A stretch of DNA of 21,958 nucleotides from a virus, in the IMG/VR virus record IMGVR_UViG_3300047318_000148, positions 1-21,958 of that record. One strand, 5' to 3'. Each line of letters opens with the position of its first letter. Positions within the stretch are counted from its first letter, which is position 1. The notes beneath the pieces are model-generated. The model had not been told where the DNA came from and searched no databases. It saw only the letters and a list, made by a program, of their open reading frames with translations. The position numbers and the translations under genes were made by a program. Below, piece after piece: positions 4,711 through 18,085 of the stretch.

Positions 4711-4847
4711 TTACGGCGCTGCACCTCGTCCTGAAGTAGCTGGTGGGTCTGTTCCACCTTGTCCTTAATCTTGCTAACGAGCGTGTGAATGATGTTCACA
4801 CCAACAACGATTGCGGCTAGCAGGACAAGAAACATTCCAACGGTCAT
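4701..4847 (-). CDS. Small single-pass membrane protein (48 aa)
   Basis: An overlooked short gene that reads MTVGMFLVLLAAIVVGVNII at its start. Residues 3-23 are one strongly hydrophobic segment, followed by a charged helix (SKIKDKVEQTHQLLQDEVQR) that could form a coiled coil. The start is well supported: TTGGAGGAAGTGC precedes the ATG, and the ATG overlaps the stop of the upstream small gene as ATGA. Its stop lies inside the 3' end of the convergent gp16-like gene. It opposes the late operon and sits where P22 has its minus-strand immI/sieA region, so superinfection exclusion or another lysogenic-conversion role is possible. A holin or spanin component is the alternative. Existence is well supported; function is inferred only from location and topology. 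Confidence 0.72.
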   Translation of the reverse strand: MTVGMFLVLLAAIVVGVNIIHTLVSKIKDKVEQTHQLLQDEVQRRNQR

Positions 4848-5011
4848 GCACTTCCTCCAACGCGCTTAAACAGTACGCGGCGCAGCCTGACGTTACGGAC
4901 TCGCCGTTGCAACCAGTTGTTAGCCAGCTTCCCCGGCCTGAGTAGCAGCCACCAGATCGCCGGTCCAACTATCGGCGTCAGAAACGCGGCAATAGCAGTC
5001 GAAGTCTGCAT
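4844..5011 (-). CDS. Small basic single-pass membrane protein (55 aa)
   Basis: The protein begins MQTSTAIAAFLTPIVGPAIW. Residues 5-25 form one hydrophobic segment with two adjacent tryptophans at its end. The rest is strongly basic (QRRVRNVRLRRVLFKR), predicting a cytoplasmic tail that may touch nucleic acid or lipid headgroups. The stop overlaps the next gene's ATG (ATGA), so the two small proteins are made together. Only a G-rich stretch (GTGTGGGG) precedes the ATG. It is transcribed away from the tail adaptor gene and against the late operon. I do not recognise a family. Together with its partner it may be an exclusion pair like those found at the same place in P22-type phages, but that is inference. 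Confidence 0.65.
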   Translation of the reverse strand: MQTSTAIAAFLTPIVGPAIWWLLLRPGKLANNWLQRRVRNVRLRRVLFKRVGGSA

Positions 5012-7326: not shown

Positions 7327-7334
7327 GGACACAC

Positions 7335-8807
7335 ATGCCCACCACCCGCCCCATTACGTCCTGCCTCGTCCGCGCCCTCGCCTCTGCGGTTACGGAGGGG
7401 GGAGGGGGTGCCCAGCCTCCGCTTGCGTTGCGCAATCTCGTGCTGGCGGGTGGCGTGACCGCCGTTAACCCGATGGTGCCGATTGGCGACAGCCACACGG
7501 ACAACGGCACGTCGGCGCACTTCCTGTGGGACCGCCTCAAGACGGTACGCAACCAGCCGGGCGAGGGCTTGGAAGGCGTGCCGTCCGGTGGCATCGTGCC
7601 GATGGGCAACAACGGGCAGACGCTCGCCAACTACTTGACCGGCGCGGGCACGAACACCTTCGCCGCTGCAATGGCGCTAAATCCGTCCGTGGTGGTGTCC
7701 TGCTGGCTAATCAACGATGTGCGCCTGGGTGGGCTGGGCCTGACGGTGGACGCCATCCGTACCGCAGGCGTGGCCCTATTGAACCAGCACGTCGCCAACA
7801 TCAAGGCGGCGCGGCCTTCGGCGCTGATCGTGCTACGCATCCCGTCGCCGTTCCTCACGGTCAACGTGTCGAGCCTGAACTACGTCACGGACGGCTCTAC
7901 CATCAACCCGGCAGGACTGGCGCAGATTTACACAACCGGCATCCGGGCGGCCTACTACGCGGTAAAGAGCACGTATCCGGACGTAATGATCTACGACCCG
8001 CAATCGCGCCTTTTCGGCACGGACTCGCCAACCGCTGTGGGTACGAATTACGCCGATCAGATTCACCAGAACCAAGTTGGCTACGAGGCCGAGGCCGACA
8101 ACTTCGCCGATTGGATCAATGCCCCGGTGGCCTACTCGCAGGCGTCCACCGATGCGGCGCTGGTGGCACAGCCCTATACGCCGTGGCTGTCCTACTCGCG
8201 CGCCGTCGAGGATGGCTCCCGCTTCGTGCGCGTGGGTTACGCCCCGGCGATCACGGTCACCAGTGGCAACACCTTCCTGGACTTCGGCCCGACCGTCCCC
8301 AACGCCGACCCGACCCTGATGGATCGCTACGACGTGGTGCAAACCGTGGGCGCGTCAAAGTCGTTCGTGGTGCCGCCGGCCAGTACGCTTGGCACCTCGG
8401 CAACCAACACCCGCATTTCGCTGGGCGGTGGCGCCACCGTCCCCACGTCTGCCGTGGCGCAAACCAAGGTGCGCGTGTACCGGCAGACGGTTAGCGGCGA
8501 TGCGCTGGTGAATGCCAAGCTGACGGGGGGCAGCTATACCCGCACGGGCCGCATTTCGGCGGGTGGCACGACCTTCATGGACGTGACGGCCTACAGCCTC
8601 ACCAGCACGAAGCCGACGCAGGCGGCGAACCTTTGGGTGCCGGAAATGCTGGCGGGCGATAAGGTGTATGTCGAAGGCTTCGGCGCGACACCGCTCACCC
8701 TGGCGGCCAACTTCTCGCAGAGCGGCGGTAACCTGCGCATCACTGGTCTGTCGGGCACGGACTGGAGCCTGTACGCGGGCCGGATCGTCGTCGTGTATCG
8801 CGCCTAA
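7335..8807 (+). CDS. Tail protein with SGNH/GDSL hydrolase (esterase) domain
   Basis: Residues 46-262 carry the four SGNH blocks. Block I is GDSH with nucleophile S53, block II has glycine in GNNG (91-94), block III is LIND with N127, and block V is DQIH with D241 and H244. Proteins of this family remove acetyl or other acyl groups from carbohydrates or lipids. In a phage tail this suggests de-O-acetylation of LPS O-antigen, capsule or exopolysaccharide during adsorption. Residues 1-45 are a low-complexity lead with a Gly run. Residues 270-490 are a beta-rich C-terminal region of no family I can name. AAGGA lies 6 bases before the ATG, 8 bases after the preceding gene. The domain call is strong; the substrate is unknown. 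Confidence 0.83.
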   Translation: MPTTRPITSCLVRALASAVTEGGGGAQPPLALRNLVLAGGVTAVNPMVPIGDSHTDNGTSAHFLWDRLKTVRNQPGEGLEGVPSGGIVPMGNNGQTLANYLTGAGTNTFAAAMALNPSVVVSCWLINDVRLGGLGLTVDAIRTAGVALLNQHVANIKAARPSALIVLRIPSPFLTVNVSSLNYVTDGSTINPAGLAQIYTTGIRAAYYAVKSTYPDVMIYDPQSRLFGTDSPTAVGTNYADQIHQNQVGYEAEADNFADWINAPVAYSQASTDAALVAQPYTPWLSYSRAVEDGSRFVRVGYAPAITVTSGNTFLDFGPTVPNADPTLMDRYDVVQTVGASKSFVVPPASTLGTSATNTRISLGGGATVPTSAVAQTKVRVYRQTVSGDALVNAKLTGGSYTRTGRISAGGTTFMDVTAYSLTSTKPTQAANLWVPEMLAGDKVYVEGFGATPLTLAANFSQSGGNLRITGLSGTDWSLYAGRIVVVYRA

Positions 8808-8844: not shown

Positions 8845-9035
8845 TAGTCAACCAGAACCCAAGTGTCTGCCGCGATTAGGTGGCTTCCGCGCGGAATCTG
8901 AGGCGGTGCCGCGTACATGGCTTGTGCTATGTCCAACCGGCCTGCGGCTTGGGCTTGTCGGCGCGCGTCGTCAACGTCTGTCGCGATGATCCAGCCCGTA
9001 GGTTTGTTGTCCACAAATGACACGATGCAAAGCAT
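8844..9035 (-). CDS. Hypothetical protein (63 aa)
   Basis: A compact soluble protein beginning MLCIVSFVDNKPTGWIIATD and continuing with DDARRQAQAAGRLDIAQAMY, then a beta-rich end (GSHLIAADTWVLVD). This beta-alpha-beta pattern is typical of small phage early proteins, but I know no function for it. AGGAGGT stands 6 bases before the ATG, an almost perfect ribosome site, so the gene is real and probably well translated. It lies between the tail genes and attP, on the strand opposite the late genes. That is a common place for lysogenic-conversion (moron) genes. Confidence 0.7.
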   Translation of the reverse strand: MLCIVSFVDNKPTGWIIATDVDDARRQAQAAGRLDIAQAMYAAPPQIPRGSHLIAADTWVLVD

Positions 9036-9064
9036 GGGCAGACCTCCTAAAACCGTGAGTTTAG

Positions 9065-9086
9065 CCCCGGTGTTCGCCGGGGTGGT
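9065..9086. repeat. Hairpin repeat copy 2
   Basis: CCCCGGTGTTCGCCGGGGTGGT is a perfect hairpin (CCCCGG/CCGGGG, six-base loop TGTTCG) just beyond the stop of the 65-aa minus-strand gene. It matches copy 1 at 21 of 22 bases, and each copy closes a separate small gene. A shorter 15-base match (9444-9458) lies inside the HNH gene. Confidence 0.6.
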
Positions 9087-9089
9087 GCG

Positions 9090-9287
9090 TTAGCGCGGTG
9101 TGGCTGGGCGGAACGGGATAAATGGACAGTCCGGGTCGGGGAGTTTGTAGACCCGCCCCGTGGCCCGATTGAATGCGAAAGACTCCCCGGAGATAAGCTG
9201 CAACGTTGTCCAGTCCGGGAACACTTGGGCCATCCAAGCAACGTCTTTGCGGGGCTCCAAATCCTTCCCGCAATTCTGGCTTGTCAT
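9090..9287 (-). CDS. Hypothetical protein (65 aa)
   Basis: Reads MTSQNCGKDLEPRKDVAWMA, followed by VFPDWTTLQLISGESFAFNRATGRVYKLPDPD and a Pro-rich end. The NRATGRVYKLPDPD part looks like a small beta-hairpin found in short phage proteins. The start is chosen because AGGA lies 9 bases upstream; an overlapping frame starting at 9297 has a less protein-like composition. It is 41 bases downstream of the HNH gene and upstream of the 63-aa gene, probably in one minus-strand transcript. Function unknown. Confidence 0.5.
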   Translation of the reverse strand: MTSQNCGKDLEPRKDVAWMAQVFPDWTTLQLISGESFAFNRATGRVYKLPDPDCPFIPFRPATPR

Positions 9288-9328
9288 CGCTTTTCATCCT
9301 GTGCAGTTTTTGTGCAGTGGTTGGGGCA

Positions 9329-9862
9329 TTACAAACCGGCTAGCGCGGAAATGTCCTTCACGGCCAGAGCCCGGCAGATTCGCAGGAACGGTACGTCGCC
9401 CCAGCAGTTCATCCCCACGTTGACCGCGTAACACACCAGCCTCGTGTTCGCCGGGGTGTAGCCTTCGTCCGAACTGATCCGGTCGATGCTGGGGGCGAAT
9501 GGGCGGCGCTTGCCGTGAACCTCAAAGCTGAAAGGCAGGCCGGACACCTCGCATCGGCCCTGCGATCGCACAGCCATGTGCACCACGTCGGCAAGGTCTA
9601 GGCTGTTCGCCTTGCGCCCCTTGCGGACCTGCACCAACAAGCGGGAAACCCACGGGCTACGGCTCTCTGCGGCCTCCCGCACCTGCTCAGCCCACCAGGA
9701 GTCGTGCTGGGCGACAAGGGTCTGCGATTCCCACTGGCGGTAGTACGCTATGGCGGCCGGGAGGGTGGTGCATTTCGTGCTGACGCGAACCTGTCGCCCG
9801 TTGATGACGCGGGATATATGCCACGTCTGACCCCGCTTTACTAACCCCCTCGGCACATCCAT
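9329..9862 (-). CDS. HNH endonuclease-like protein with N-terminal DNA-binding region
   Basis: A 177-aa protein. Residues 1-45 (VPRGLVKRGQTWHISRVING and the following basic strands) resemble the arm-type DNA-binding fold at the front of phage integrases or AP2-like domains. Residues 104-155 (CEVSGLPFSFE, PSIDRIS, GYTPANTRLVC, N148) match the phage HNH-like family in which an SxDRID...GYTPDN block replaces the canonical HH-N-H. Only single cysteines are present instead of CxxC pairs, so zinc binding is doubtful. GAGGTGA precedes the ATG. The leader contains the left copy of the att arm repeat, so integrase binding could block its transcription. A free-standing nuclease acting on DNA is likely; a role in recombination or exclusion is guesswork. 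Confidence 0.7.
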   Translation of the reverse strand: MDVPRGLVKRGQTWHISRVINGRQVRVSTKCTTLPAAIAYYRQWESQTLVAQHDSWWAEQVREAAESRSPWVSRLLVQVRKGRKANSLDLADVVHMAVRSQGRCEVSGLPFSFEVHGKRRPFAPSIDRISSDEGYTPANTRLVCYAVNVGMNCWGDVPFLRICRALAVKDISALAGL

Positions 9863-9872
9863 TCGTCACCTC

Positions 9873-9890
9873 AAACGCAACTAACACGCA
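9873..9890. repeat. Left arm-type direct repeat flanking attP
   Basis: AAACGCAACTAACACGCA matches 17 of 18 bases of the copy at 10071-10088, in the same orientation, on the other side of the tRNA-like att core. The placement fits integrase arm-binding sites. It lies in the leader of the HNH gene. Confidence 0.6.
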
Positions 9891-9982
9891 CGGGCGCTGA
9901 AACCCGCATTCTGCCGCTGTCAAAACGGCCCCTGTGATTCCGTAAGTACCTGTATTTCCTGATATCCCCTAACCTTGACATG

Positions 9983-10019
9983 GTAGGGGTCACAGGTTCG
10001 AACCCTGTACCGCCCACCA
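9983..10019 (+). other. attP core: 3' end of a tRNA gene
   Basis: The segment holds a complete tRNA T-arm (ACAGG, TTCGAAC, CCTGT at 9992-10008), the 3' acceptor strand ACCGCCC and an encoded ACCA (10016-10019), preceded by a GGGTC-like variable loop. The upstream bases do not form an anticodon arm or 5' half, so it is not a whole tRNA but the piece a tRNA-targeting phage carries to restore the gene after integration. The acceptor would pair with 5' GGGCGGT, compatible with a valine tRNA, but the anticodon is absent and the identity is uncertain. It sits next to int, as expected for attP. Confidence 0.85.
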
Positions 10020-10062
10020 ATCCTATCAAGCACTTAGCTAGGGTTGGCGACCTTTCATCGGG

Positions 10063-11130
10063 TCACACTAAAACGCAACTAGCACGCAGCCCGTCCATGT
10101 ACCCGTCGATGGCCTGCACGGCATGGCCGAGGTAGTCGGGCCGGTACTTCGCGTAAACCTCCGTCTTGCCGCCATAGGCGCGGTGGCCGAGGAACCCCTG
10201 AATCTCTGCTTCCGGCACGCCTGCTGCGCGTAGCTCGGTCGCCATCGTGTGCCGGATCGTCTTGGGCACCACGTCCTCGCCAAGCCATGCCCGCTTGCGC
10301 ATCTTTCGCCATGCCGTCTTGAAGCTGGCGATCTTCTTCCCCCTCCATTGCACCAGCGGCCCATCCGGGGCGTGTTCCAGCCACGGCAACAGGAACCCAC
10401 ACACCGGCACGGTCGGGCGGTATTTCTTCGTCTGCTTGCGGCCTGGCGGATTCTGCACCAGCAGACGGCGGCCAAAGTCCACTTGGCTGCGTGTTAGGTC
10501 TAGGGCGGCCTCCGTGCGTGCCAGCGTGCCGTACATGAGCGCCAGCATCATCCGTTCGTGCGGCTGCTCGGCCGCCATCCATAGGGCCACGGACTCGTCT
10601 ACCGTCAGCACGCGGTCACGGGGCGGGGCATCCTCGCCGGGGATGATGAAGGGCACCGAGTCAATCTCGCCCTCCTCGTAGGCGTTATTCAGGGCCGCCT
10701 TGCCCACACCGAGGATGCGCTTGATGTAACCGTCAGACAGCGGCGGCTTGCGCTGGCCCCGTAGCCACGCCATGAAGTCGCGTTGGCTCTGCTTGTCGAT
10801 CTCCGACACCATCCGGCCGCTGAAATAGTCGGACCAGTAGGCAAGGGCGATTTCGGTGGTTTCCTTCGCCTTCAGCGCGCTCCCGTGGCGGTGCCAGTAG
10901 CGCACTAGCACCTGATCCAGCGGGACCGCCTGCGGCGCCTGCTTGCCTAGTTTCGCGTTCCGGATGACCCACTCGGCAAGAGCGACCTTGGCCGCCTGAA
11001 AGTCGCTTGCGCTAAGGCTTGCGCGCTTTGTCTGTCGAGTGGCGGCGTCGTACCACGTGCGGCACCACTGTTCGGAGCCTGGACGCTTTGAGAGCCAGTA
11101 GTCGCCGAATTGTCCGAGCCGTTCCTGCAT
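10063..11130 (-). CDS. int: Tyrosine-recombinase integrase
   Basis: A 355-aa phage integrase that would recombine attP with the 3' end of a host tRNA gene. Residues 1-60 form the arm-binding domain (RLGQFGDYWLSKRPGSEQW), 65-155 the SAM-like core-binding domain and 170-340 the catalytic domain. Catalytic residues: R205 (GTLARTEAAL), R293-H294 (TIRHTMATEL), H316 (GFLGHR) and nucleophile Y326 (EVYAKY). The first histidine of the usual HxxR box is lysine (K290), a known variation. Its start lies inside xis by 184 bases in another frame and has no good Shine-Dalgarno, so expression is probably coupled to xis. It points toward attP, about 45 bases beyond its stop, and ends the leftward early operon. 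Confidence 0.93.
   Translation of the reverse strand: MQERLGQFGDYWLSKRPGSEQWCRTWYDAATRQTKRASLSASDFQAAKVALAEWVIRNAKLGKQAPQAVPLDQVLVRYWHRHGSALKAKETTEIALAYWSDYFSGRMVSEIDKQSQRDFMAWLRGQRKPPLSDGYIKRILGVGKAALNNAYEEGEIDSVPFIIPGEDAPPRDRVLTVDESVALWMAAEQPHERMMLALMYGTLARTEAALDLTRSQVDFGRRLLVQNPPGRKQTKKYRPTVPVCGFLLPWLEHAPDGPLVQWRGKKIASFKTAWRKMRKRAWLGEDVVPKTIRHTMATELRAAGVPEAEIQGFLGHRAYGGKTEVYAKYRPDYLGHAVQAIDGYMDGLRASCVLV
10071..10088. repeat. Right arm-type direct repeat flanking attP
   Basis: AAACGCAACTAGCACGCA is the second copy of the 18-base repeat at 9873-9890. It overlaps the last codons of int, so the end of the integrase and a probable integrase-binding arm site share sequence. Confidence 0.6.
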
Positions 11131-11306
11131 TGCCGTAGGTACTCTGAAAGAATCTCGTCTGTGTAACGGATGATGCGCTGACCCATACGGATCGGGCTGA
11201 TTCGACCGGCCAACCGCTCACGGGTCAGCGATGCCTTGCTGATCCCCAGCTTGCGGGCGGCCTCCGTCTCGGTGAACGGGCGCTGCAAAACTTCAGCGGC
11301 TCCCAT
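10947..11306 (-). CDS. xis: Excisionase-like HTH protein
   Basis: Residues 8-60 (FTETEAARKLGISKASLTRE, then RIGQRIIRYTDEILSEYL-like) are a winged-helix of the MerR/HTH_17 excisionase type, with the wing at RMGQRIIRY. Such proteins bend attachment-site DNA and push the integrase toward excision. The last 60 residues run in a different frame over the integrase N-terminus and look like low-complexity overprint, so the functional protein may be only the first half. GGGGGTG lies before the ATG. It follows the 98-aa gene in the leftward operon, with a 19-codon mini-frame between. Lambda xis and int also overlap, but over a much shorter distance. Xis is the best call; a plain regulator is possible. 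Confidence 0.75.
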   Translation of the reverse strand: MGAAEVLQRPFTETEAARKLGISKASLTRERLAGRISPIRMGQRIIRYTDEILSEYLRQCRNGSDNSATTGSQSVQAPNSGAARGTTPPLDRQSAQALAQATFRRPRSLLPSGSSGTRN

Positions 11307-11352
11307 ATCGCACCCCCAGCCACTCCGCCATCTGCCCCCGCGATCCGGTCAT
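11293..11352 (-). CDS. Possible 19-aa coupling mini-ORF before xis
   Basis: MTGSRGQMAEWLGVRYGSR starts at an ATGA overlap with the stop of the 98-aa gene and ends 10 bases inside xis. Ribosomes leaving the upstream gene could reinitiate here and finish beside the xis start, linking translation of the early operon to xis. No homology can be claimed, and it may be chance. Confidence 0.28.
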   Translation of the reverse strand: MTGSRGQMAEWLGVRYGSR

Positions 11353-11645
11353 GGCTTGCTCCGCTTTGTAATCCGTGTCGGCTTGTCTCGCGGGCCGTAT
11401 CCGACCCACACGCCGCGCTCTGGCGTGATCCCGGTCATAGAGTTGCCCCAAGCTCCTGCGCTCCAATACTTGCTCACCTCCGTATAGCCGGGGTCGTACA
11501 GCCCCAGCTCCACACACAGGCGGCGCGCATCGCTCATGCTGTACGCAGCGACGTAGACATGCCCAACGTGGCCGTCTCGTTTCCATTCGTTGTCCGGCAA
11601 AACGCCATAACAGCGGCCGTTCCACAGCTTCAGTTCCTTAGCCAT
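11349..11645 (-). CDS. Hypothetical early protein (98 aa)
   Basis: Starts MAKELKLWNGRCYGVLPDNE and continues VYVAAYSMSDARRLCVELGL, then KYWSAGAWGNSMTGITPERG. This beta-alpha-beta arrangement with a C-terminal WVGYGP segment is common in small phage proteins of unknown function. GGAGGGG stands upstream of the ATG. The ATG overlaps the stop of the 166-aa gene (TAATG), so an upstream extension of the same frame is not the start. Its stop overlaps the mini-ORF before xis. Nothing in the sequence gives a catalytic role. Confidence 0.72.
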   Translation of the reverse strand: MAKELKLWNGRCYGVLPDNEWKRDGHVGHVYVAAYSMSDARRLCVELGLYDPGYTEVSKYWSAGAWGNSMTGITPERGVWVGYGPRDKPTRITKRSKP

Positions 11646-12145
11646 TACTTCACCCCTCCCTCGTCGTGGCTGGTCCCGTTCGCGGCGAGGAAGGCGGCGG
11701 CTTCGTTGCACTTGTCGGCCATGTTGCGGTAGTCGTATGGGTTGGCGGCGAACCATGCGAGCAAGCTGAAAGCCGCCTCCCTGGCGCGCTCGGCGGCCTC
11801 GGCTCGGGCCAGCAATCCGTCAATGTCGGCCATGCACTGCTCGCCGAATGCATCGGCGGTTTCCCGCCTGTAGCGAACGTTAGATAGCGTTTCCTCCAGT
11901 TCGGCCACCTGTAGCAGCAGCGCGGGGAGGGCGTTGACGGCGGCAATCATTAGGCGAGCGTCGGGGATTGCCCATGCCGTGGCGCGGTCAATCGACACCG
12001 TTCGCGGGCCGACCAAAATGGCGTGCTCTTGCGGACCAGTTGCAGGCGGCGAGATTTCCGCGCAGTGCCACGGCCCCGGCGTCGCCAATTTCAGCAACTC
12101 GGCCAGTCTCGCCACGTCCACGCGCTGGGTGTCAGGTGAAGTCAT
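11645..12145 (-). CDS. Ead/Ea22-like phage early protein (166 aa)
   Basis: The N-terminus (VDVARLAELLKLATPGPWHC) is the signature opening of the phage Ead/Ea22-like family, with the ATPGPW motif. Those proteins are common in the left early operons of lambdoid phages and have no settled function. Residues 75-95 (DARLMIAAVNALPALLLQVA) continue the typical helix, followed by a long charged coiled-coil stretch rich in Ala, Arg and Glu to about residue 140. The start at 12145 is preferred because it overlaps the stop of the 48-aa gene as ATGA; an ATG at 12151 with GAGG upstream is the alternative. It is tightly coupled on both sides. Confidence 0.72.
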   Translation of the reverse strand: MTSPDTQRVDVARLAELLKLATPGPWHCAEISPPATGPQEHAILVGPRTVSIDRATAWAIPDARLMIAAVNALPALLLQVAELEETLSNVRYRRETADAFGEQCMADIDGLLARAEAAERAREAAFSLLAWFAANPYDYRNMADKCNEAAAFLAANGTSHDEGGVK

Positions 12146-12288
12146 TTCCATTTCGTGATCCCTCGGCCGTGACGTTGCAGATAGCGCCACGACCAGTTGT
12201 GCAGCCTGTAGGCGCGGGCCAGTGTTTCGCGGTTCCTCCACCACTTGTGCCGCCACGCTGACTTGGCGAATCCGAGCGACTTAGCCAC
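12142..12288 (-). CDS. Small Trp-rich basic protein (48 aa)
   Basis: Reads from a GTG start as MAKSLGFAKSAWRHKWWRNR and ends GRGITKWK. It has six tryptophans among 48 residues and a strong excess of Arg, Lys and His, so it is very basic with aromatic surfaces, suited to binding nucleic acid or a host protein. GGGGAG precedes the GTG. Eight bases overlap the end of the 169-aa gene, and the stop overlaps the start of the 166-aa gene as ATGA. This double coupling is the best evidence that it is real. I recognise no family. An inhibitor or host-takeover peptide is possible, but nothing here proves it. Confidence 0.58.
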   Translation of the reverse strand: MAKSLGFAKSAWRHKWWRNRETLARAYRLHNWSWRYLQRHGRGITKWK

Positions 12289-12790
12289 GGGACTCTCCCC
12301 GCATGGCGGCACGTTCGACTAACGCCTGTGCGTCGCGCATGTTGACGATGCTGATAGTCCCCGCCGCCACGATTCCGACGATTCGCATTGCTTCGGCCGC
12401 GTCCTCGGCCTCGTTAGGCGCTGCGGGCTGGGGGGTGCGCGCGGCGAGGGCGTAGGCGCGCATCTGCTCGGCGGTGTAAAGGTCTGCCACATGGGAGTAT
12501 CGCGGGTTCAACTTGCCGAACGTCAGGGCGTCATTTATGCCGTCATGCGCGACGATTGTTTTCCGCCCTGTCTCGTCGTGCTGAAACTCATAAGCAGACG
12601 CCTCCGGCAACTCCGGCAAACCCTCCCCCGCTTCGGGCAGCGGCGCGGATGGGGTGGCACGTTCGCGCAGCACGTCACGCGCAGTGCCAAGCGCGGCGAC
12701 CGTCTGCTCGTCGAAGTCCAACCCCGCTGCCTCGTCGATCAGGCTTTGCATTTCGCTGGCGCAGCGTTCGTATACCTTAGCGTTAGACAC
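12281..12790 (-). CDS. Hypothetical phage early protein (169 aa)
   Basis: A mainly helical, acidic protein starting at GTG with AAGGAG 7 bases upstream. The middle (EASAYEFQHDETGRKTIVAH and RYSHVADLYTAEQMRAYALA) is a block seen in many proteobacterial phage early proteins, where a short beta hairpin is followed by the YTAEQMRAYA helix; no function is known to me. The N-terminal 45 residues are a charged helix and the C-terminal 50 are Ala-rich helices. The first 8 bases overlap the gene upstream and the last 8 the 48-aa gene, so it is expressed from the leftward promoter with its neighbours. Confidence 0.7.
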   Translation of the reverse strand: MSNAKVYERCASEMQSLIDEAAGLDFDEQTVAALGTARDVLRERATPSAPLPEAGEGLPELPEASAYEFQHDETGRKTIVAHDGINDALTFGKLNPRYSHVADLYTAEQMRAYALAARTPQPAAPNEAEDAAEAMRIVGIVAAGTISIVNMRDAQALVERAAMRGESRG

Positions 12791-13247
12791 TGCTCGGCTC
12801 CTTCGTCAGGGCGGCGGTGAGCCAGCCGCGAATCAGTCCACGCAGCCGGTCATTGCCGAAAATGAAAAAGCAATCGAACTGGCGCATTTCAGCGAACGCC
12901 CGCTCCACCATCGCCTCATCCGCCCCAGCGGGGGCGGCCTGCTGCTGGGCGAGGAGGAAGCGAATCCGCTCCATGGCGGCAATGGTCTGCGGATCCTCGC
13001 CTAACTGTCCGCGCATGTAGGCTTCGTTTAGCTCACCTAGAACGTCGTTCCAAACCTCACCAGCGGGGGCGGCCTGCTGCTGGGCGAGGCTGCGCGCCAG
13101 CTTGGCAAGGTCGTTCGCCCAGCCACGCATCACGCTCATATCCTCGCCATCGGCCGATGCGTCACGGGCCTCCGCGCGCATTTCCGCGATGATCTTTTCC
13201 AGCCGTGCGTTGGGGGCCAATACTGCGGGGGGCGTTGAAAGGGTCAT
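12783..13247 (-). CDS. Hypothetical phage early protein with internal repeat (154 aa)
   Basis: Starts MTLSTPPAVLAPNARLEKII. It contains two copies of LAQQQAAPAG (near residues 65 and 108), encoded by an exact 30-bp direct repeat. The sequence between (VWNDVLGELNEAYMRGQLGE) and the C-terminus (FDCFFIFGNDRLRGLIRGWL) look folded, so the repeats are probably Ala/Gln/Pro linkers. The ATG at 13247 overlaps the stop of the 107-aa gene (ATGA), with AGGA upstream; a longer start is not needed. No enzymatic motif is present. It belongs to the coupled run of small early genes. Confidence 0.7.
   Translation of the reverse strand: MTLSTPPAVLAPNARLEKIIAEMRAEARDASADGEDMSVMRGWANDLAKLARSLAQQQAAPAGEVWNDVLGELNEAYMRGQLGEDPQTIAAMERIRFLLAQQQAAPAGADEAMVERAFAEMRQFDCFFIFGNDRLRGLIRGWLTAALTKEPSSV
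12925..12954. repeat. 30-bp direct repeat, copy 1
   Basis: An exact 30-base copy, starting CCAGCGGGGGCGGCCTGCTG and ending GGGCGAGG, of the segment at 13060-13089. It encodes one LAQQQAAPAG linker. Recombination between the copies would delete 135 bp in frame. Confidence 0.85.
13060..13089. repeat. 30-bp direct repeat, copy 2
   Basis: Second exact copy of the repeat at 12925-12954, within the same 154-aa gene. The distance between copies (135 bp) is a multiple of three, so gain or loss keeps the frame. Confidence 0.85.
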
Positions 13248-13567
13248 GGCTGCTGTTCCTTGATGCATTTGTACATGGCGCGAAGGGTGGAAAGCGGCGC
13301 GGTCTTTGTCGCGGTCTCTACCTCGAGGCGCAGTCGGGAAACTTCAATGGCATCACGATCACGCTGGGTTGGCTGCCGGAGATAGACGGGGTTCCACGAG
13401 TCAGCCCCAATCGCGCGGCCGGAGTGGCGGCGATATTTCGACTTTCCGACGATGATCTGCGTGGACGTAACGCGATCAACCGCCGCGATGGTTGCGGCCC
13501 ATCGGTTATCAATCAGAACCTCGTCACCAACCTTCAACGCGGCCAGCCACTCACTGTCGTCTCTCAC
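13244..13567 (-). CDS. Hypothetical early protein (107 aa)
   Basis: Starts at GTG with AGGAG before it and reads MRDDSEWLAALKVGDEVLID. Residues 8-55 (LKVGDEVLIDNRW, AAVDRVTSTQIIVG, SKYRRHSGR) look like a small SH3-like beta barrel, which suggests binding of nucleic acid or protein. The rest is a charged helix. The stop overlaps the next gene's ATG by four bases. It follows the HNH gene after a 62-base gap holding a short inverted repeat (AGAGC/GCTCT) without a T-run. Function unknown. Confidence 0.68.
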   Translation of the reverse strand: MRDDSEWLAALKVGDEVLIDNRWAATIAAVDRVTSTQIIVGKSKYRRHSGRAIGADSWNPVYLRQPTQRDRDAIEVSRLRLEVETATKTAPLSTLRAMYKCIKEQQP

Positions 13568-13629
13568 GTCTCTCTCCTGTAGTCAGAGCAGCCGGTGCGC
13601 TCTGCTAGTCACGGCTGCCCTGTGGTGCG

Positions 13630-14034
13630 TCAGGCCGCTTGCTTCCTTCTGCCTTTCACGATTGGGCTGTTTTCGCCCGTTCGCCTCTTGCAGTAGGCAA
13701 GGAATCCAGGCGCGTTCAAGTTCTCTTTTTGCGTTCCCCACGCCAGATTGCTTGGCGCGTTGTTGCGCGAGTCCTCGTCCATGTGCATGCAAACCGAGTC
13801 ATAGGACGGCGGCGGGCCTTTGAAGGCTTCGCAGATGAGGCGGGCGACTTTGTATGTGCGCCCGCCACATCTCCAAATGAACCTCGACCCATCCCAGCAA
13901 CCGACCGTGGGGACTCCCCCGTATTGCTTGCGACCAGCACCAGCCACGAACGGCTTCACCATCACCCGACCGAGAGACGAGGCAATTGCCCCGTCAACAG
14001 ATGGGATTGCTCGCCAAATTTCTCGCTCAGTCAT
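13630..14034 (-). CDS. HNH homing-type endonuclease (NUMOD4/HNH_3-like)
   Basis: A 134-aa protein with an N-terminal NUMOD4-like strand (IWRAIPSVDGAIASSLGRVM) that contacts DNA and a C-terminal HNH_3 domain: VARLICEAFKGPPP, then H84-x-D86, N91/N92 and N96 (HMDEDSRNNAPSNLAWGT). This is the I-HmuI-type arrangement of free-standing phage endonucleases, which cut DNA and promote their own spread. Here it lies between the SSB-like and 107-aa genes, 8 bases from the former, and has only a weak ribosome site (TAGG). It could be an invader of the operon or a recruited recombination helper. The domain call is good. Confidence 0.85.
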   Translation of the reverse strand: MTEREIWRAIPSVDGAIASSLGRVMVKPFVAGAGRKQYGGVPTVGCWDGSRFIWRCGGRTYKVARLICEAFKGPPPSYDSVCMHMDEDSRNNAPSNLAWGTQKENLNAPGFLAYCKRRTGENSPIVKGRRKQAA

Positions 14035-14042
14035 GGCGCGGC

Positions 14043-14330
14043 CTAAAACGGGATCTCAGAATCGTCAAACGCACCGGCCGCTGCTGCCTCTTGCTTGGGT
14101 GCGGATCGTTCCTGGCGCTGACCTTCCGGCTTCCAGTTGTCCGCGGCCGCATACCACTTGCCACCCTGCGACACCTTCACGTCAGCGTTAATCCACTCGC
14201 TGGACTTGGTTTGCAGCCACGCAATCAACTCCTCGCGTCGGATAGACAGCTTGGCCTTGACGTAATCCGGTGCGTTTTCGTTCGGTGCCTTGACGATCAG
14301 GCCATTAATAAACTCGGCTTCACTTTTCAT
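14043..14330 (-). CDS. SSB-like protein of the recombination cassette (95 aa)
   Basis: Residues 5-70 (EFINGLIVKAPNENAPDYVK, WINADVKVSQGGKWYAAADN) have the strand pattern of a small OB-fold, and the C-terminus DDSEIPF copies the acidic DDDIPF tip of bacterial SSB, which recruits host repair and replication proteins. A linker rich in Gln, Ala and Glu joins them. It probably coats single strands made by the neighbouring exonuclease. The ATG overlaps the exonuclease stop as ATGA. A role close to SSB is inferred from the tip motif, size and neighbours; the body is too divergent to be sure. Confidence 0.68.
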   Translation of the reverse strand: MKSEAEFINGLIVKAPNENAPDYVKAKLSIRREELIAWLQTKSSEWINADVKVSQGGKWYAAADNWKPEGQRQERSAPKQEAAAAGAFDDSEIPF

Positions 14331-14956
14331 GCTGCGATCCTCATTTGGAGTTCTGCGACTTTGGTTTGCACCAGTTCAAGGAACATGGCGCGGCGTTCTG
14401 CGAGCTGGTTCAGTTCTTCGGTGACCTCTCCGCGATACGTGCGGAAGATCGCCAGTTGGTTCCATTCGGGGTAGTCGGCGCAGTAGCTAACGAAATCGAC
14501 CCAATCGCGCCCCGTGCAGTCCAGGTGCCCAATGCGCTGCCACTTGTAGGCAGGGTCTGCGGCCCCCCGGCGGATGTTGGCCTCATGCACGCTGGCGATA
14601 ACCGACTTAATCTCGATCACACCGTCACGGCTAATGAGTCCGTCCGGGGAGTCGCCATGCGTGCCGTGGCAGAAGAATCCGCCGTTTGTCACGTCTACGA
14701 AGTTCTGTTCTTCGTAGAGCATCCTGGCAATCGGTTCCTGTGCGTGCCCGCGCTCCATGTGTTCGTTCTTGAAGCTGTATTCCGCCTTGCGCCCGGTGAC
14801 GATCTCCAGTGCAATCTTTAGCGCGTACTCTTTCGCTGGCTCGCCGAACGCCTTGCCATAGTTCGCCATGAACGTGCCGAACTTTGACGCGGTAGCCTTG
14901 CCCAACCGCAGCGCATCCCATTCCGGCGTGTTCTGTTCTACGTCGTGAAAGATCAC
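14327..14956 (-). CDS. YqaJ/lambda-Exo-type 5'-3' exonuclease
   Basis: A PD-(D/E)xK nuclease of the YqaJ viral recombinase family. Key parts are TPEWDALRLGKATAS (10-24), the glutamates in MERGHAQEP (67-75), D105 in GDSPDGL, and E115-x-K117 in GVIEIKS; Q140 and the GHLDCTGRDWVDF block complete the fold. Such enzymes chew one DNA strand so that an annealing protein can pair ends, repairing or circularising phage DNA. The GTG start at 14956 is chosen because AGGAGG lies 5 bases upstream and it overlaps the preceding stop as GTGA, giving 209 aa; an upstream ATG at 14983 would read through the previous gene. No classical Beta or RecT neighbour is visible. Confidence 0.88.
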   Translation of the reverse strand: MIFHDVEQNTPEWDALRLGKATASKFGTFMANYGKAFGEPAKEYALKIALEIVTGRKAEYSFKNEHMERGHAQEPIARMLYEEQNFVDVTNGGFFCHGTHGDSPDGLISRDGVIEIKSVIASVHEANIRRGAADPAYKWQRIGHLDCTGRDWVDFVSYCADYPEWNQLAIFRTYRGEVTEELNQLAERRAMFLELVQTKVAELQMRIAA

Positions 14957-15474
14957 GCGGCCTCCTGCTGTGCGGGCGTGCATTCCGTTACGAGCTGCTT
15001 CTGATGCGCCTCGCTAATGTCCACGCGGGACAGCACGGCATCGAGGTTCCCGTCGCGCAGGTATGCGGCCTTGGCGTTAGCCCAAGCGGTGGCCTGCTCT
15101 GGCGTGAGCTGCTTCTTGCCGGGAGCCTTCGGGCTGATACGCAAGCCCTCCATGACCTCGTTGCCGAACTTGACGTTCTTGTCCACGTAGACCGTGACGC
15201 GCACGTCGGTCCAGTCCTCGATAAAGGCGGAGCCGGTCAATTCCTTCACCACCTTGGAATTGGTGGCGTTCAGGATCATGGGCTTCAGCGGCTCACCAGG
15301 ACGAATCTCACTCTCCACGAAATAGGCCGTGTTGAACTGGTCCTTCGTCTTTTTCGTCTTGTCCTTCTCCAGTGCGACACGCTTAATCGTGAGCACGGTC
15401 GGCCCAACAATGTCCGCGCTGCTCAGGTATGGCGAGTTGAACGCCTTGCGGAAGTGGGTTTTGTCAGTAGTCAT
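14953..15474 (-). CDS. Conserved phage recombination-cassette protein (173 aa), candidate ssDNA-binding or annealing partner
   Basis: Reads MTTDKTHFRKAFNSPYLSSA, then a beta-rich body: TVLTIKRVALEKD, TAYFVESEIR, PLKPMILNATNSKVVKELTG, EDWTDVRVTVYVDKNVKFG, VMEGLRISPKAP. The pattern of LTI.., KPMILNATN and DWTDVRVTVY strands belongs to a family often found next to phage exonucleases and annealases, with no function I can name securely. A compact beta body would fit an OB-fold. The last 50 residues are helical. GGAG lies before the ATG. The stop overlaps the exonuclease GTG. Since Beta, RecT or Erf is absent nearby, this protein is the best local candidate for the exonuclease's partner. Confidence 0.68.
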   Translation of the reverse strand: MTTDKTHFRKAFNSPYLSSADIVGPTVLTIKRVALEKDKTKKTKDQFNTAYFVESEIRPGEPLKPMILNATNSKVVKELTGSAFIEDWTDVRVTVYVDKNVKFGNEVMEGLRISPKAPGKKQLTPEQATAWANAKAAYLRDGNLDAVLSRVDISEAHQKQLVTECTPAQQEAA

Positions 15475-15700
15475 TTGCAGACTCCGTTGTAAGTTCCAGC
15501 CCGCCCGCCACTGGGGGGTAGGGGTATTCAGTGGCGGACAGGCCGGAGGGGAGGGTGTTGCCGAAGATCGGCGCCAGGACGCGCGGCGGAATGTCTGCGC
15601 GGTAGCCGTCGCGGGTCTGTGCGGACTGCTGCAAGTAGCGCATACGGTTCTCCATGAACATCGCGGCTTCGGCTGCGCGGTCGGCGTGGTGAAGGTTCAT
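15464..15700 (-). CDS. Hypothetical early protein (78 aa)
   Basis: Begins MNLHHADRAAEAAMFMENRM and continues with a helix to about residue 25 (RYLQQSAQ), then a Pro/Gly-rich, poorly ordered half (PPRVLAPIFGNTLPSG). GAGGAA lies 9 bases before the ATG and overlaps the stop region of the preceding gene, and the last 11 bases overlap the 173-aa gene. A helix plus flexible tail is all that can be read. The position directly upstream of the recombination cassette suggests an accessory role, but there is no direct evidence. Confidence 0.66.
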   Translation of the reverse strand: MNLHHADRAAEAAMFMENRMRYLQQSAQTRDGYRADIPPRVLAPIFGNTLPSGLSATEYPYPPVAGGLELTTESANDY

Positions 15701-15704
15701 GCGC

Positions 15705-15932
15705 TCATTCCTCGTCGGTCTGATTGATGGGAAACGGGGTCCCGGCGAAGTAGTCGGGCACGTCATCGGCCAGCGACACGCGCGGCGACGGCTCGCGGTC
15801 CTCCTCGCAGACGTTCGCGTAGTAGTCGCCTGCGCAGATGCCGTTCTCGGCTTCCCACTCGGCGTCAGCGTCGCGCGGTGTCCCGATGATCGCGGTGAAG
15901 TTGGTTTGCAGATGGCGATTGATGGCGTTCAT
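15705..15932 (-). CDS. Hypothetical acidic early protein (75 aa)
   Basis: Starts MNAINRHLQTNFTAIIGTPR, and is strongly acidic after residue 20 (DADAEWEAENGICAGDYYAN, EEDREPSP). Acidic small early proteins can mimic DNA or bind host proteins, but that is only a suggestion. The ATG at 15932 overlaps the previous gene's stop as ATGA, so the longer MVCMNAIN start is less likely. Short spacing on both sides places it firmly in the leftward operon. Confidence 0.66.
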   Translation of the reverse strand: MNAINRHLQTNFTAIIGTPRDADAEWEAENGICAGDYYANVCEEDREPSPRVSLADDVPDYFAGTPFPINQTDEE

Positions 15933-16243
15933 ACAAACCACCCAGCCATCGCGGCCAGCACGCCAACCGTCGCGCCAATGCAGATGCCAACGATCAGCAC
16001 CGGGGCCATGAATCCATCCGCGTCTTTGCGGCCCTGCTGCAATCCGCGAGTGAATCCGACAACCTCGCCCTTGAGGAATCCGTCGTCGTAGCGGCTCCTG
16101 GCGACGCGTTCGGCTTGGCGCGCAACGTCTTGCATCTGCACAGAGATGGGAAACAGGGGTTGGACTCGGGCGCTCACAGGGCCTCCAGCGATTCGTTCAA
16201 CGATGGGTTCAAGGTCGGAAAGGAACTCGGCAGACGTGCGCAT
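15929..16243 (-). CDS. Small membrane-anchored protein (104 aa)
   Basis: The N-terminal 75 residues are soluble, mainly charged and helical (AEFLSDLEPIVERIAGG, VARQAERVARSRYDDGFLKG). Residues 80-104 (APVLIVGICIGATVGVLAAM) form one clear transmembrane helix at the C-terminus, so this is a tail-anchored protein with its soluble part probably in the cytoplasm. The ATG overlaps the preceding stop (TGATG). Early expressed membrane proteins of this kind often serve superinfection exclusion or host takeover; no family is recognised. Confidence 0.67.
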   Translation of the reverse strand: MRTSAEFLSDLEPIVERIAGGPVSARVQPLFPISVQMQDVARQAERVARSRYDDGFLKGEVVGFTRGLQQGRKDADGFMAPVLIVGICIGATVGVLAAMAGWFV

Positions 16244-16455
16244 CACTTGGAGCCCCCGATGAAGTCGGCCTCATGCACCGTGAAGGTGCCGGGCTCGGCG
16301 CAGCAGGTGACCGGGTTCCAGCGCAGGCACGCTCCGGTGTATTGGCCGTATTCGCGCGGCTCACGTTCGACGGCCGGGCGCCTGACTGGATTGCCTTGCC
16401 ACTCGGGTTCGCAGAACCAGTAGTCGCCGGGACCGGGCAGGTTGTCGTTGCTCAT
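16243..16455 (-). CDS. Hypothetical early protein (70 aa)
   Basis: Begins MSNDNLPGPGDYWFCEPEWQ and includes REYGQYTGACLRWNPVTCCA, with four cysteines (C15, C46, C54, C55) and many aromatic residues. A small metal-bound or disulfide-poor beta fold is plausible. The frame upstream of this ATG lies over the preceding 53-aa gene and is Arg-rich shadow, so the ATG at 16455, overlapping the previous TGA, is the start. Function unknown. Confidence 0.64.
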   Translation of the reverse strand: MSNDNLPGPGDYWFCEPEWQGNPVRRPAVEREPREYGQYTGACLRWNPVTCCAEPGTFTVHEADFIGGSK

Positions 16456-16616
16456 CACAGCGCCCCCAGCAGATGCAGCAGCACCACTTCCGCCAGCAAG
16501 ATCGCGGACAGGATCGCCACGCGGAACTCGTAGTGGATGGACAGGTAGAGGCCGAGGAGGCCGTTCGGCTGCTGCCAGGAGCTGGTGTCTGCGGTGCCGT
16601 CGAGAATCGGAGCCAT
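16455..16616 (-). CDS. Small membrane protein (53 aa), first gene of the leftward operon
   Basis: Reads MAPILDGTADTSSWQQPNGL, then a helix and one transmembrane segment at the end (EFRVAILSAILLAEVVLLHL). AGGG lies 9 bases before the ATG; a GTG at 16673 in the same frame has no ribosome site and lies inside the operator. It is the first gene after the leftward promoter and its operators, so it is probably expressed immediately after infection, as expected for an exclusion or takeover protein. The stop overlaps the next ATG (TGATG). Confidence 0.65.
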   Translation of the reverse strand: MAPILDGTADTSSWQQPNGLLGLYLSIHYEFRVAILSAILLAEVVLLHLLGAL

Positions 16617-16663
16617 TTCTGAGTCCCTTTCGCCGCCTTCGCCAGTTATTGGCGGTGTCTGTG

Positions 16664-16682
16664 GCGTAACCACAAGTTACGC
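16664..16682. promoter_or_regulatory. Operator OL1
   Basis: GCGTAACCACAAGTTACGC is a perfect 7-bp inverted repeat with a 5-base centre. It covers the -10 element of the leftward promoter. It is the best-matched member of the operator family found on both sides of the repressor gene. Confidence 0.82.
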
Positions 16683-16702
16683 TCATGGACGAAGCAGTGC
16701 AA
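16674..16702 (-). promoter_or_regulatory. Leftward early promoter (PL-like)
   Basis: On the minus strand TTGCAC (-35, 16702-16697) is separated by 17 bases from TAACTT (-10, 16679-16674). The -10 lies inside operator OL1 and the -35 inside the weaker site at 16697-16715, so repressor bound at either place would block it. Transcription would begin near 16668 and enter the 53-aa gene. Match to consensus is moderate; the operator overlap is the main support. Confidence 0.6.
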
Positions 16703-16715
16703 CTGCCTGTTACGG
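16697..16715. promoter_or_regulatory. Operator OL2 (imperfect)
   Basis: GTGCAACTGCCTGTTACGG fits GCGTAAC-N5-GTTACGC at 11 of 14 arm positions. Its centre is 33 bp from OL1 and it overlaps the -35 element of the leftward promoter. Confidence 0.5.
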
Positions 16716-16732
16716 CTACAGGCGAGACAAAG

Positions 16733-16750
16733 CGTTCCATCCTTGGAACG
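16733..16750 (-). terminator. Terminator-like hairpin after the repressor gene
   Basis: CGTTCCA and TGGAACG form a perfect 7-bp stem around a 4-base loop, followed on the minus strand by CTTTGTCT. It lies about 30 bases beyond the repressor stop and would separate the repressor transcript from the leftward operon. The T-run is weak. Confidence 0.5.
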
Positions 16751-16778
16751 ATGGGTACTTACGGGGTTAAGGAGAGAT

Positions 16779-17105
16779 TTACTCGGCTGCGGCCGGGTTC
16801 TGGCTCGCCATCTGGCTGGCGACACTAAAGAGAAGCTTCCTCTGCTCAGGCGTGAGCAGGCGGTACAGCTCAATCAACTCTTGCTCATCTTTTACTTCTA
16901 GGACCACGGATCCCTCCCCAAGGGCTTCTGAAACCGACATTTGCGCATGAGCCGCATAAACGGCTATTTCGCGCGGTGTTACCGCGCTCTTGCGCTGGAG
17001 CTTCTGCGTGACGGCTTGCCCCGTGACACCCGTCTCCCGGCCCACCTGGGCTCGATTGACGTTGTGTCGGTCGAAGGCGTTAGCAATTCGTTCGTAGAAG
17101 TCCAT
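16779..17105 (-). CDS. Prophage repressor, short HTH protein (CI-like, no peptidase domain)
   Basis: A 108-aa DNA-binding protein. Residues 15-40 (NVNRAQVGRETGVTGQAVTQ and KLQRKS) form a lambda-repressor-like helix-turn-helix, and residues 70-100 (DEQELIELYRLLTPEQRKLL) a helical C-terminal part likely used for dimerisation. It has no LexA/S24 serine-lysine peptidase domain, so RecA-driven self-cleavage is not expected and induction may need another route. It is divergent from the Cro-like gene, with operators on both sides, the normal immunity layout. The bases before the ATG are C-rich with no Shine-Dalgarno, as in some repressor transcripts with very short leaders; a TTG at 17168 in the same frame is unlikely because it lies close to the proposed promoter. 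Confidence 0.78.
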   Translation of the reverse strand: MDFYERIANAFDRHNVNRAQVGRETGVTGQAVTQKLQRKSAVTPREIAVYAAHAQMSVSEALGEGSVVLEVKDEQELIELYRLLTPEQRKLLFSVASQMASQNPAAAE

Positions 17106-17141
17106 CTTGGGGTAGGAGGCTCGCAGGGGTTGCGACTGAAA

Positions 17142-17160
17142 GCGTAACGTTGAGTTACAT
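17142..17160. promoter_or_regulatory. Operator OR3-like site at the repressor promoter
   Basis: GCGTAACGTTGAGTTACAT matches GCGTAAC-N5-GTTACGC at 12 of 14 arm positions. It covers the proposed -10 element of the repressor's own promoter, so it may set autoregulation or Cro repression of the repressor gene. Confidence 0.68.
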
Positions 17161-17185
17161 AAGTGCAAGCTGCCTACTTGCGCAA
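17156..17185 (-). promoter_or_regulatory. Repressor promoter (PRM-like)
   Basis: Minus strand TTGCGC (-35, 17185-17180), an 18-base spacer and TATGTA (-10, 17161-17156). Its -35 lies in the same TTGCGCAA palindrome as the rightward promoter. The -10 overlaps the operator at 17142-17160. Confidence 0.5.
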
Positions 17186-17206
17186 AGCGAAACTAGGCGT
17201 TACGCT
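17178..17206 (+). promoter_or_regulatory. Rightward promoter (PR-like)
   Basis: TTGCGC (17178-17183), a 17-base spacer and TACGCT (17201-17206). The spacer and -10 are covered by the operator at 17187-17205, and the likely start site by the one at 17209-17227. It would drive the Cro-like gene and the rightward operon. The -10 is poor, so the exact hexamer is uncertain. Confidence 0.48.
17187..17205. promoter_or_regulatory. Operator OR2-like site
   Basis: GCGAAACTAGGCGTTACGC fits the operator pattern at 13 of 14 arm positions, the second-best match after OL1. It spans the spacer and -10 of the rightward promoter. Confidence 0.7.
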
Positions 17207-17208
17207 GA

Positions 17209-17227
17209 CCGTAACTAGAGCTTACGG
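17209..17227. promoter_or_regulatory. Operator OR1-like site
   Basis: CCGTAACTAGAGCTTACGG matches 11 of 14 arm positions and is itself symmetric (CCGTAA/TTACGG). Its centre is 22 bp, about two helix turns, from the previous operator, so bound dimers could touch. It lies over the likely rightward start site. Confidence 0.58.
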
Positions 17228-17235
17228 TTAGTTAC

Positions 17236-17475
17236 ATGAAGGCCATCGATCGGCTCAGGAAGTCCGGACTCACCACCACCCAGGTGGCGGCCGGCATTGG
17301 TTGCACCGAACACATGGTGCGCCTGTACGAGCGCGGAAAGCGCTTCCCGAGCAAAAAGAACTTCGTCTGCATGGTTGAGCTGGCCGAATCGCGCGGCCTG
17401 ATGTTGGTCGCGCGGGATTTCATCTCGGATGGAGATGTGTGCGAAGCCGACAGCGGTAACAAATCCCTGGGGTAA
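17236..17475 (+). CDS. Cro-like HTH regulator
   Basis: A 79-aa protein whose first 45 residues (MKAIDRLRKSGLTTTQVAAG, then CTEHMVRLYERGKRFP) form an XRE-type helix-turn-helix. The size and position, divergent from the repressor and first after the rightward promoter, identify it as a Cro-type regulator that would favour lytic growth by binding the shared operators. The ATG follows a half-operator (GTTACAT) directly, with no recognisable Shine-Dalgarno, so its messenger has a short and weak leader. A strong terminator begins 10 bases after its stop. The fold call is good; Cro is assigned by context. Confidence 0.8.
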   Translation: MKAIDRLRKSGLTTTQVAAGIGCTEHMVRLYERGKRFPSKKNFVCMVELAESRGLMLVARDFISDGDVCEADSGNKSLG

Positions 17476-17484
17476 GCGGTCATT

Positions 17485-17514
17485 GGCTCGGGTCTTCGGA
17501 CTCGGGCCTTTTTT
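17485..17514 (+). terminator. Strong Rho-independent terminator after the Cro-like gene
   Basis: GGCTCGGGTC and GACTCGGGCC form a 10-bp stem (two G-U pairs) closed by a UUCG tetraloop, followed by six T residues. It would end most rightward transcripts before the CII-like gene, comparable in place to lambda tR1, so downstream genes need read-through, antitermination or another promoter. Confidence 0.88.
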
Positions 17515-17570
17515 GTACGCGTCGGAAGTTCGGAAGTTCGCGGAATTTTCTGGGTTAACGAGGAAAGACC

Positions 17571-17966
17571 ATGAAACAAGGCACTTTGAGAGGTTTTGGC
17601 GCTCCGTACCTGTCTGGGGCCATGCCGCCGGAGAACATGCCAGAGGACGTTGTGACGGCCTGCGAGAGTGAGGCTGACGCGATCCGTCGCAGCATCAAGT
17701 TCGCCAAGCGGAAGTTCGGCTACCGGCAGATCGACATTGCGAAGTTGTGCGGCTGGGAAAGCGACAACCACCTGAGCGCATACAAGAAGGCCCGCGACGG
17801 GTCGATGCCGGAGAAGCATTACGACCGCTTCTGTCAGGTGACGGGCTGCAACTTGCTGGCCCAGTACCAAGCGCGCCGCGACGTGATCGCCGGGATCACC
17901 GGCAAGCAGACGCAGAACGACAAGGATCGCGCGCTAGTGGAGCGGATGCTCCAGGTGGCCGCGTGA
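17571..17966 (+). CDS. CII-like phage regulator
   Basis: A 131-aa protein. Residues 38-80 (IRRSIKFAKRKFGYRQIDIA, then CGWESDNHLSAYKKA) contain a helix-turn-helix followed by a helical block (YDRFCQVTGCNLLAQY). Proteins of this plan are usual downstream of Cro in prophages of Xanthomonadaceae and seem to take the place of lambda CII, although they are not proven activators. The C-terminal 30 residues form a charged helix. GAGGAAAG lies before the ATG, downstream of the terminator and a short repeat GGAAGTTC-GGAAGTTC. Its TGA overlaps the next GTG. An activator of the repressor or int promoter is the inferred role. Confidence 0.62.
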   Translation: MKQGTLRGFGAPYLSGAMPPENMPEDVVTACESEADAIRRSIKFAKRKFGYRQIDIAKLCGWESDNHLSAYKKARDGSMPEKHYDRFCQVTGCNLLAQYQARRDVIAGITGKQTQNDKDRALVERMLQVAA

Positions 17967-18085
17967 TAAGCCACGACTCCATTCCGTACTGCCCGCCCTG
18001 CGACCACGAGACGCAGCGCATCCGCGACGCCATCGAGCGCAAGAAGTCCAAAGAGAACGAACGCGACAGCCGGAGGCAGGCATGA
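17963..18085 (+). CDS. Small CPPC-containing protein (40 aa)
   Basis: Reads MISHDSIPYCPPCDHETQRI and then a highly charged helix (ERKKSKENERDSRRQA). It starts at GTG overlapping the previous stop (GTGA), with AGGTGG 5 bases upstream, and its own stop overlaps the next ATG (ATGA). Coupling on both sides supports a real gene although it is below the usual annotation size. The CPPC pair could bind zinc or form a disulfide. Function unknown. Confidence 0.58.
   Translation: MISHDSIPYCPPCDHETQRIRDAIERKKSKENERDSRRQA

Follow-up and report, generated by a model that had tools for sequence, protein, structure and literature searches.

In phage lambda, CI and Cro act at the operators OL and OR, with three operators between the divergent repressor and cro genes and three more at the leftward promoter, which cover the -35 and -10 boxes. 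Related designs are known from the immB switches of the telomere phages N15, phiKO2 and PY54 (PMC4488713, PMC4997575). In PY54 the operator is a 16-bp palindrome, Cro binds a single site only, and leaderless mRNAs were demonstrated for both cro and cI (PMC4488713). In phi11 the repressors fail to bind all three of their operators (PMC3991615), so that, with phi11 and PY54 in mind, it should not be taken for granted that repressor and Cro bind equally. Salmonella phages of the Gifsy type have non-cleaved repressors, for which antirepressor-driven induction is known, and heteroimmune relatives with different operators (PMC3121763).

The DNA analysed here (the window), a linear IMG/VR fragment of 21,958 bases, holds five inverted repeats which, with a probability of roughly 0.92, serve as operators in a bipartite lysis-lysogeny switch of the lambda type. 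As in lambda, three of them lie between a divergent repressor and cro and others lie at the leftward promoter; the proposed -35 and -10 boxes fall within them. The locus differs from lambda in its 19-bp operator with an N5 core and another sequence, in having two OL sites instead of three, in its 108-aa repressor devoid of a peptidase domain and in a spacing between OR2 and OR3 that varies within the family by about helical turns. A leaderless cro, shown for PY54 among the telomere phages, is predicted here as well, whereas the operator sequence and the linear-plasmid lifestyle of these phages are different, and no sequence kinship with the N15, phiKO2 or PY54 regulators was found. Non-cleaved repressors and heteroimmune relatives with different operators are common to this locus and the Gifsy type, but antirepressors are present there, while the window has neither an identified antirepressor nor a consensus LexA box. 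In its architecture the switch follows lambda and N15; what is new to the libraries searched is the operator sequence and the family of regulators.

Regulators and putative operator sites of the window

Two helix-turn-helix genes stand divergently in the window, as in lambda-type switches, and the 108-aa repressor frame of the original prediction was recovered with its ATG at 17105.

16779..17105, minus strand: prophage repressor (CI-like), 108 aa, N-terminal XRE-type helix-turn-helix and two C-terminal helices
17236..17475, plus strand: Cro-like lytic regulator, 79 aa, all-helical helix-turn-helix protein

The AlphaFold models of the repressor and of Cro have pLDDT values of 83 and 86, respectively, and the C-terminal part of the repressor consists of two helices only. 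No C-terminal S24-type self-cleaving peptidase domain was detected in the repressor with Pfam, NCBIfam or the structure model; at 108 aa and lacking this domain, it does not belong to the RecA-cleavable lambda CI family. Neither Pfam nor NCBIfam has a model above cut-off for the repressor/Cro family. In Foldseek neither model had a match below E 0.001, which limits the structural kinship of both regulators to the level of the helix-turn-helix fold; the best fold neighbours of the repressor, all above this value, include P22 c2, the N-terminal domain of lambda CI and DdrO. Cro has a profile match to the lambda-repressor-like PDB chain 28tn (E 1e-4).

Searches by tblastn with the repressor and Cro against 50,697 phage records returned zero relatives. 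No relative was found when the repressor alone was searched against contigs of viruses and of genomes, by tblastn with the repressor of one homologous switch (L152, see below) against phages and plasmids, or by an order-level search around Caldimonas mangrovi; relatives were obtained through a Cro search, a family-level genome search and alignments only. Judged by sequence, the repressor/Cro pair is a new family with a new operator specificity, within a well-known kind of switch.

The five sites of the form GCGTAAC-N5-GTTACGC were found where the original prediction had placed them, two at the leftward promoter and three between the divergent regulators, and with the same scores: 14, 13, 12, 11 and 11 of 14 arm positions at 16664, 17187, 17142, 17209 and 16697, respectively.

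16664..16682: OL1, GCGTAAC-CACAA-GTTACGC, perfect; encloses the proposed PL -10 TAACTT (minus strand, 16674-16679)
16697..16715: OL2, GTGCAAC-TGCCT-GTTACGG; proposed PL -35 TTGCAC (minus strand, 16697-16702), 17 nt from TAACTT
17142..17160: OR3, GCGTAAC-GTTGA-GTTACAT; proposed repressor-promoter -10 TACGCT (minus strand, 17141-17146)
17187..17205: OR2, GCGAAAC-TAGGC-GTTACGC; proposed PR -35 TTACGC (17200-17205)
17209..17227: OR1, CCGTAAC-TAGAG-CTTACGG; proposed PR -10 TACGGT (17223-17228)

Comparable matches elsewhere, which would have counted against the prediction, came down to two. In the 21,958-base record seven places score at least 11 of 14 against 1.06 expected, a number reached in 0 of 100 shuffles; the two additional places, 4880 and 21726, are isolated matches of 11/14 each, and none above 11 lies outside the cluster. 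In 300 first-order Markov sequences a 564-nt stretch contained two matches at most, and none at 13/14. When the composition of the two regulator-flanking regions was used for the Markov control, the maximum in 3,000 tries was again two, compared to the five observed.

Homologous switches and a heteroimmune sibling

Homologous switches were retrieved from two viral contigs (L142 and L159) and, within the Lysobacter gilvus family, from two genomes (L151 and L152; L158 and L160 are the same prophage as L152). Their repressors are 44-53% and their Cro proteins 43-55% identical to those of the window. All five switches of this small set, including the window, have three sites between the genes, in a geometry that is largely fixed: the distance from the start codon of the repressor to the start of OR3 is exactly 37 nt, OR2 and OR1 are 22-23 bp apart and OR1 ends 7-8 nt before cro. 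On the left, the window, L151 and L159 have two sites, always 33 bp apart, whereas L152 has three and L142 has four. The multi-copy operators, intergenic as well as leftward, carry the same motif at the same positions in L142, L151 and L152, with the L142 OR3 scoring 10/14; in L159, whose sites were registered with a relaxed pattern, the positions are kept, the operator sequence is shifted and the recognition helix is altered. Since the intergenic DNA of these switches is barely alignable apart from short words, the conserved sites are more than merely inherited sequence. The comparison of related immunity regions, proposed as a check, strongly supports the lambda-like OL/OR reading with a different sequence.

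The motif was present beside every close homologue of the repressor/Cro pair, which supports a co-occurrence of the putative operators with these regulators. Motif clusters were seen in 0 of 75 viral relatives and 0 of 3 named phages, all of which have just the neighbouring recombination gene in common with the window, and comparable sites are absent from L161-L164, which have weak Cro matches. An exact-motif scan of viral contigs yielded 63 stretches, single sites for the most part. Three contigs with clustered motifs (L091, L126 and L129) were set aside as they have no homologue of the window's repressor; an obvious switch was not seen in L091. L126 comes from an unrelated phage; its region 6688-7869 combines another divergent pair of HTH-like genes with GCGTAAC-type palindromes at 6688, 6720 and 7711, one of which adjoins the regulators and is a possible convergent operator.

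A sibling phage, L001, is 99.7% identical to the window over 7.6 kb (window 8956-16556) and then diverges. The exchange boundary at 16556 falls 108 bp past OL1, inside the first leftward gene.

16455..16616, minus strand: first leftward gene, 53 aa, hydrophobic; contains the L001 exchange boundary

The genes of the replacement block in L001 are those of another HTH repressor and of a Cro of 63 aa; L002 has the same replacement of the immunity block. In L001 the GCGTAAC motif is at chance level overall and absent from the switch, and another palindrome, ATTGGGNATNCCCAAT, is found on the right at 3458, where it separates the regulators, and twice on the left, at 4330 and 4355. At the sequence level, L001 shows that the putative operators of both promoters were replaced along with the regulators; as the exchange is one contiguous block, it demonstrates consistency and not independent co-selection. 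Operator specificity changes together with the regulators in both heteroimmune relatives, L001 and L159. The locus belongs to a compact immunity family with its own operator code; a heteroimmune sibling has the same backbone, and relatives occur in the Lysobacter gilvus family.

Comparison with L001 brought out two further features. Near the exchange boundary, where the left operators of L001 give way to the leftward operon common to both phages, L001 has an HNH-type frame (about 4414-4875) that the window lacks. Within the leftward operon, a 30-nt exact match between window 12925-12954 and 13060-13089 forms a short direct repeat.

These data bear on two other explanations of the five sites. 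The two isolated 11/14 matches elsewhere in the window might suggest chance inverted repeats, favoured by AT-richer intergenic DNA, but the Markov controls, local composition included, never reach the cluster and the same positions are occupied in four other switches; the comparative data refute this explanation, to which we give practically no weight. The palindromes could also bind a host regulator borrowed by the phage, inverted repeats over promoters being generic regulator sites. We consider this very improbable: in the two whole bacterial genomes with homologous prophages that were scanned besides the IMG/VR fragment (G194 and G221, 3.6 and 4.0 Mb), 3 of 3 and 2 of 3 matches with at most one mismatch are inside the prophage switch, so that strong matches concentrate there and not in host genes, and the motif alters when the phage repressor alters (L159, L001).

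Predicted promoters, operator code and spacing

Each site had been predicted to lie over a promoter element. The family-conserved hexamers do coincide with the sites, but a generic scan of 16000-18000 recovered no sigma-70 promoter and the proposed hexamers are weak matches to the consensus, so the assignment of promoters rests on conservation. The predicted PR is present in all five switches as TTGCGN, TTACGC or TTGCAA, then N17 (N18 in L142) and TACGGT. Its -35 is located at the right arm of OR2 (TTACGC in the window, TTGCGN or TTGCAA in the four homologues) and its -10 in the right arm of OR1. The predicted -10 of the repressor gene, TANNNT, is in the outer arm of OR3 in five of five, and the predicted PL reads TTGCAC-N17-TAACTT in the window and TTGCGC-N17-TAACAT in L142, both within operators. 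In L142 (4883) and L152 (1140, reverse) a TTGCG arm that faces rightward and belongs to none of the assigned promoters is present in the left operator closest to the repressor gene, and a rightward (antisense) promoter is possible there.

17229..17235, plus strand: gap between PR -10 and cro ATG, 7 nt (6-7 nt in all five switches)
17485..17508, plus strand: intrinsic-terminator-like hairpin (tR-like), directly 3' of cro
16733..16750, minus strand: hairpin CGTTCCA-AGGA-TGGAACG, downstream of the repressor gene

No Shine-Dalgarno sequence was seen before cro in the window, L142, L151 and L152; given also the short gap between the -10 and the ATG, we predict a leaderless cro mRNA that begins with the AUG. 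A similar hairpin followed by a T-run is present after cro in L001. On the other side, the block GGCGAGACAAAGCGTTCCA-N4-TGGAACG is conserved between window 16711-16750 and L159 5482-5525, just upstream of PL; the hairpin and its block are probably a terminator of the repressor gene and possibly a regulatory element.

The half-site consensus is NCG(T/C)AAC, from 46 half-sites of four switches (window, L142, L151 and L152), with G3 and A6 invariant and C7 in 45 of the 46. The recognition helix reads T-G-Q-A-[IV]-T in four switches compared to S-G-Q-A-V-G in the L159 repressor, and position 4 of the L159 half-site is A/T instead of T/C, which is suggestive of a correlated change in this one lineage. 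Position 4 is C in 7 of 8 -35 arms of PR and PL but in just 2 of the remaining 38 arms (P 5e-6 in a post hoc Fisher test); on this post hoc view of the sequences, the T-to-C variant in the -35 arms is a compromise between operator and promoter sequence.

The coincidence of hexamers and operator arms would also be expected if the GTAAC/GTTAC words were kept chiefly as promoter elements (-10 TACNNT, -35 TTGCG) and not as protein-binding sites. Nevertheless, the core is kept in non-promoter arms as well (the inner arms of OR1-OR3 and the extra OL sites of L142 and L152), and a two-fold symmetry with a fixed N5 is foreign to promoters, which leaves this explanation a very small chance compared with that of operators.

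The start-to-start spacing of OR2 and OR3 in the five switches is 45, 35, 25, 35 and 36 bp, the other geometry being fixed. A phase test at 10.5 bp, made post hoc on few loci, gave P 0.002 with the five spacings taken as independent and 0.012 with the two of 35 counted once. Relative to the repressor promoter, with a start assumed 7 nt beyond the -10, the centre of OR2 is at -62, -52, -42, -52 and -53. A tentative reading, to which we grant somewhat less than even odds, is that OR3 with the repressor promoter and OR2-OR1 with PR are two rigid units, joined by a linker that varies by about whole helical turns, and that the short repressor makes a face-dependent contact across it. The partner in this contact would be a repressor at OR3 or RNA polymerase. 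If true, a repressor without the lambda-type C-terminal domain would make the contact, and the family would be a natural counterpart of the classical integral-turn experiment on lambda repressor (Hochschild and Ptashne 1986, as cited in PMC8053113). The switches can be regarded as a natural experiment on the joint evolution of operator spacing, operator sequence and recognition helix, and lead to the following predictions: a half-site NCG(T/C)AAC, a residue T33 tied to position 4, a leaderless cro and a helical-turn spacing. The spacing pattern is the part most worth testing.

Proposed circuit and genomic setting

In the proposed circuit, repressor dimers would sit on OL1/OL2 and OR1/OR2, where they cover the -35 and -10 elements of PL and PR, so that the lytic operons stay off. 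Cro, expressed from PR, probably on a leaderless mRNA, would bind the same sites and, at OR3, block the repressor's own promoter. The binding itself, a reversed order of affinities, the promoter start points and a cooperativity or activation between OR2 and OR3 are what we infer. An asymmetric circuit, not fully lambda-like, in which one regulator alone uses the full set (for example, the repressor all five sites and Cro OR3 only), is unlikely but keeps an appreciable share of the probability. PY54 Cro and the phi11 repressors are precedents (PMC4488713, PMC3991615), and the cro-proximal arm of OR3 deviates (GTTACAT in the window and in L142). On the other hand, the core is invariant in all five sites and both recognition helices are conserved in the family, features which argue against such an asymmetry while leaving undecided which protein binds at each site.

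Under the lambda-type circuit that we prefer, induction has to be considered for a repressor without a self-cleaving peptidase domain: it probably involves an antirepressor or another route, and RecA-stimulated self-cleavage is unlikely. The analysis did not identify an antirepressor, and a search of the window for LexA boxes, with the E. coli type and a Xanthomonas-type pattern, found none.

The gene order around the switch is the normal layout of a temperate phage. Leftward, the gene for the small hydrophobic protein is accompanied by the integrase and by two conserved recombination genes, for a phrog_21613 protein and a YqaJ exonuclease; rightward lie Cro, a CII-position protein, a replication initiator (DnaD-like/O-like) and a DnaB-type helicase.

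17571..17966, plus strand: CII-position protein, 131 aa, function suggested by position alone

Relatives of the CII-position protein are 59% identical in Lysobacter gilvus (L143) and 45% in L001. Among phage records, no near relative of the whole record was found except for a 48-nt match. Beside the integrase, at about 9980-10022, there is a tRNA 3'-end-like sequence (GGTTCGAACCCTG...CCGCCCACCA) that recurs in Acetobacter phage phiAX1 (48 nt) and, along with the integrase, in the prophage region L154; it is a probable attachment site.
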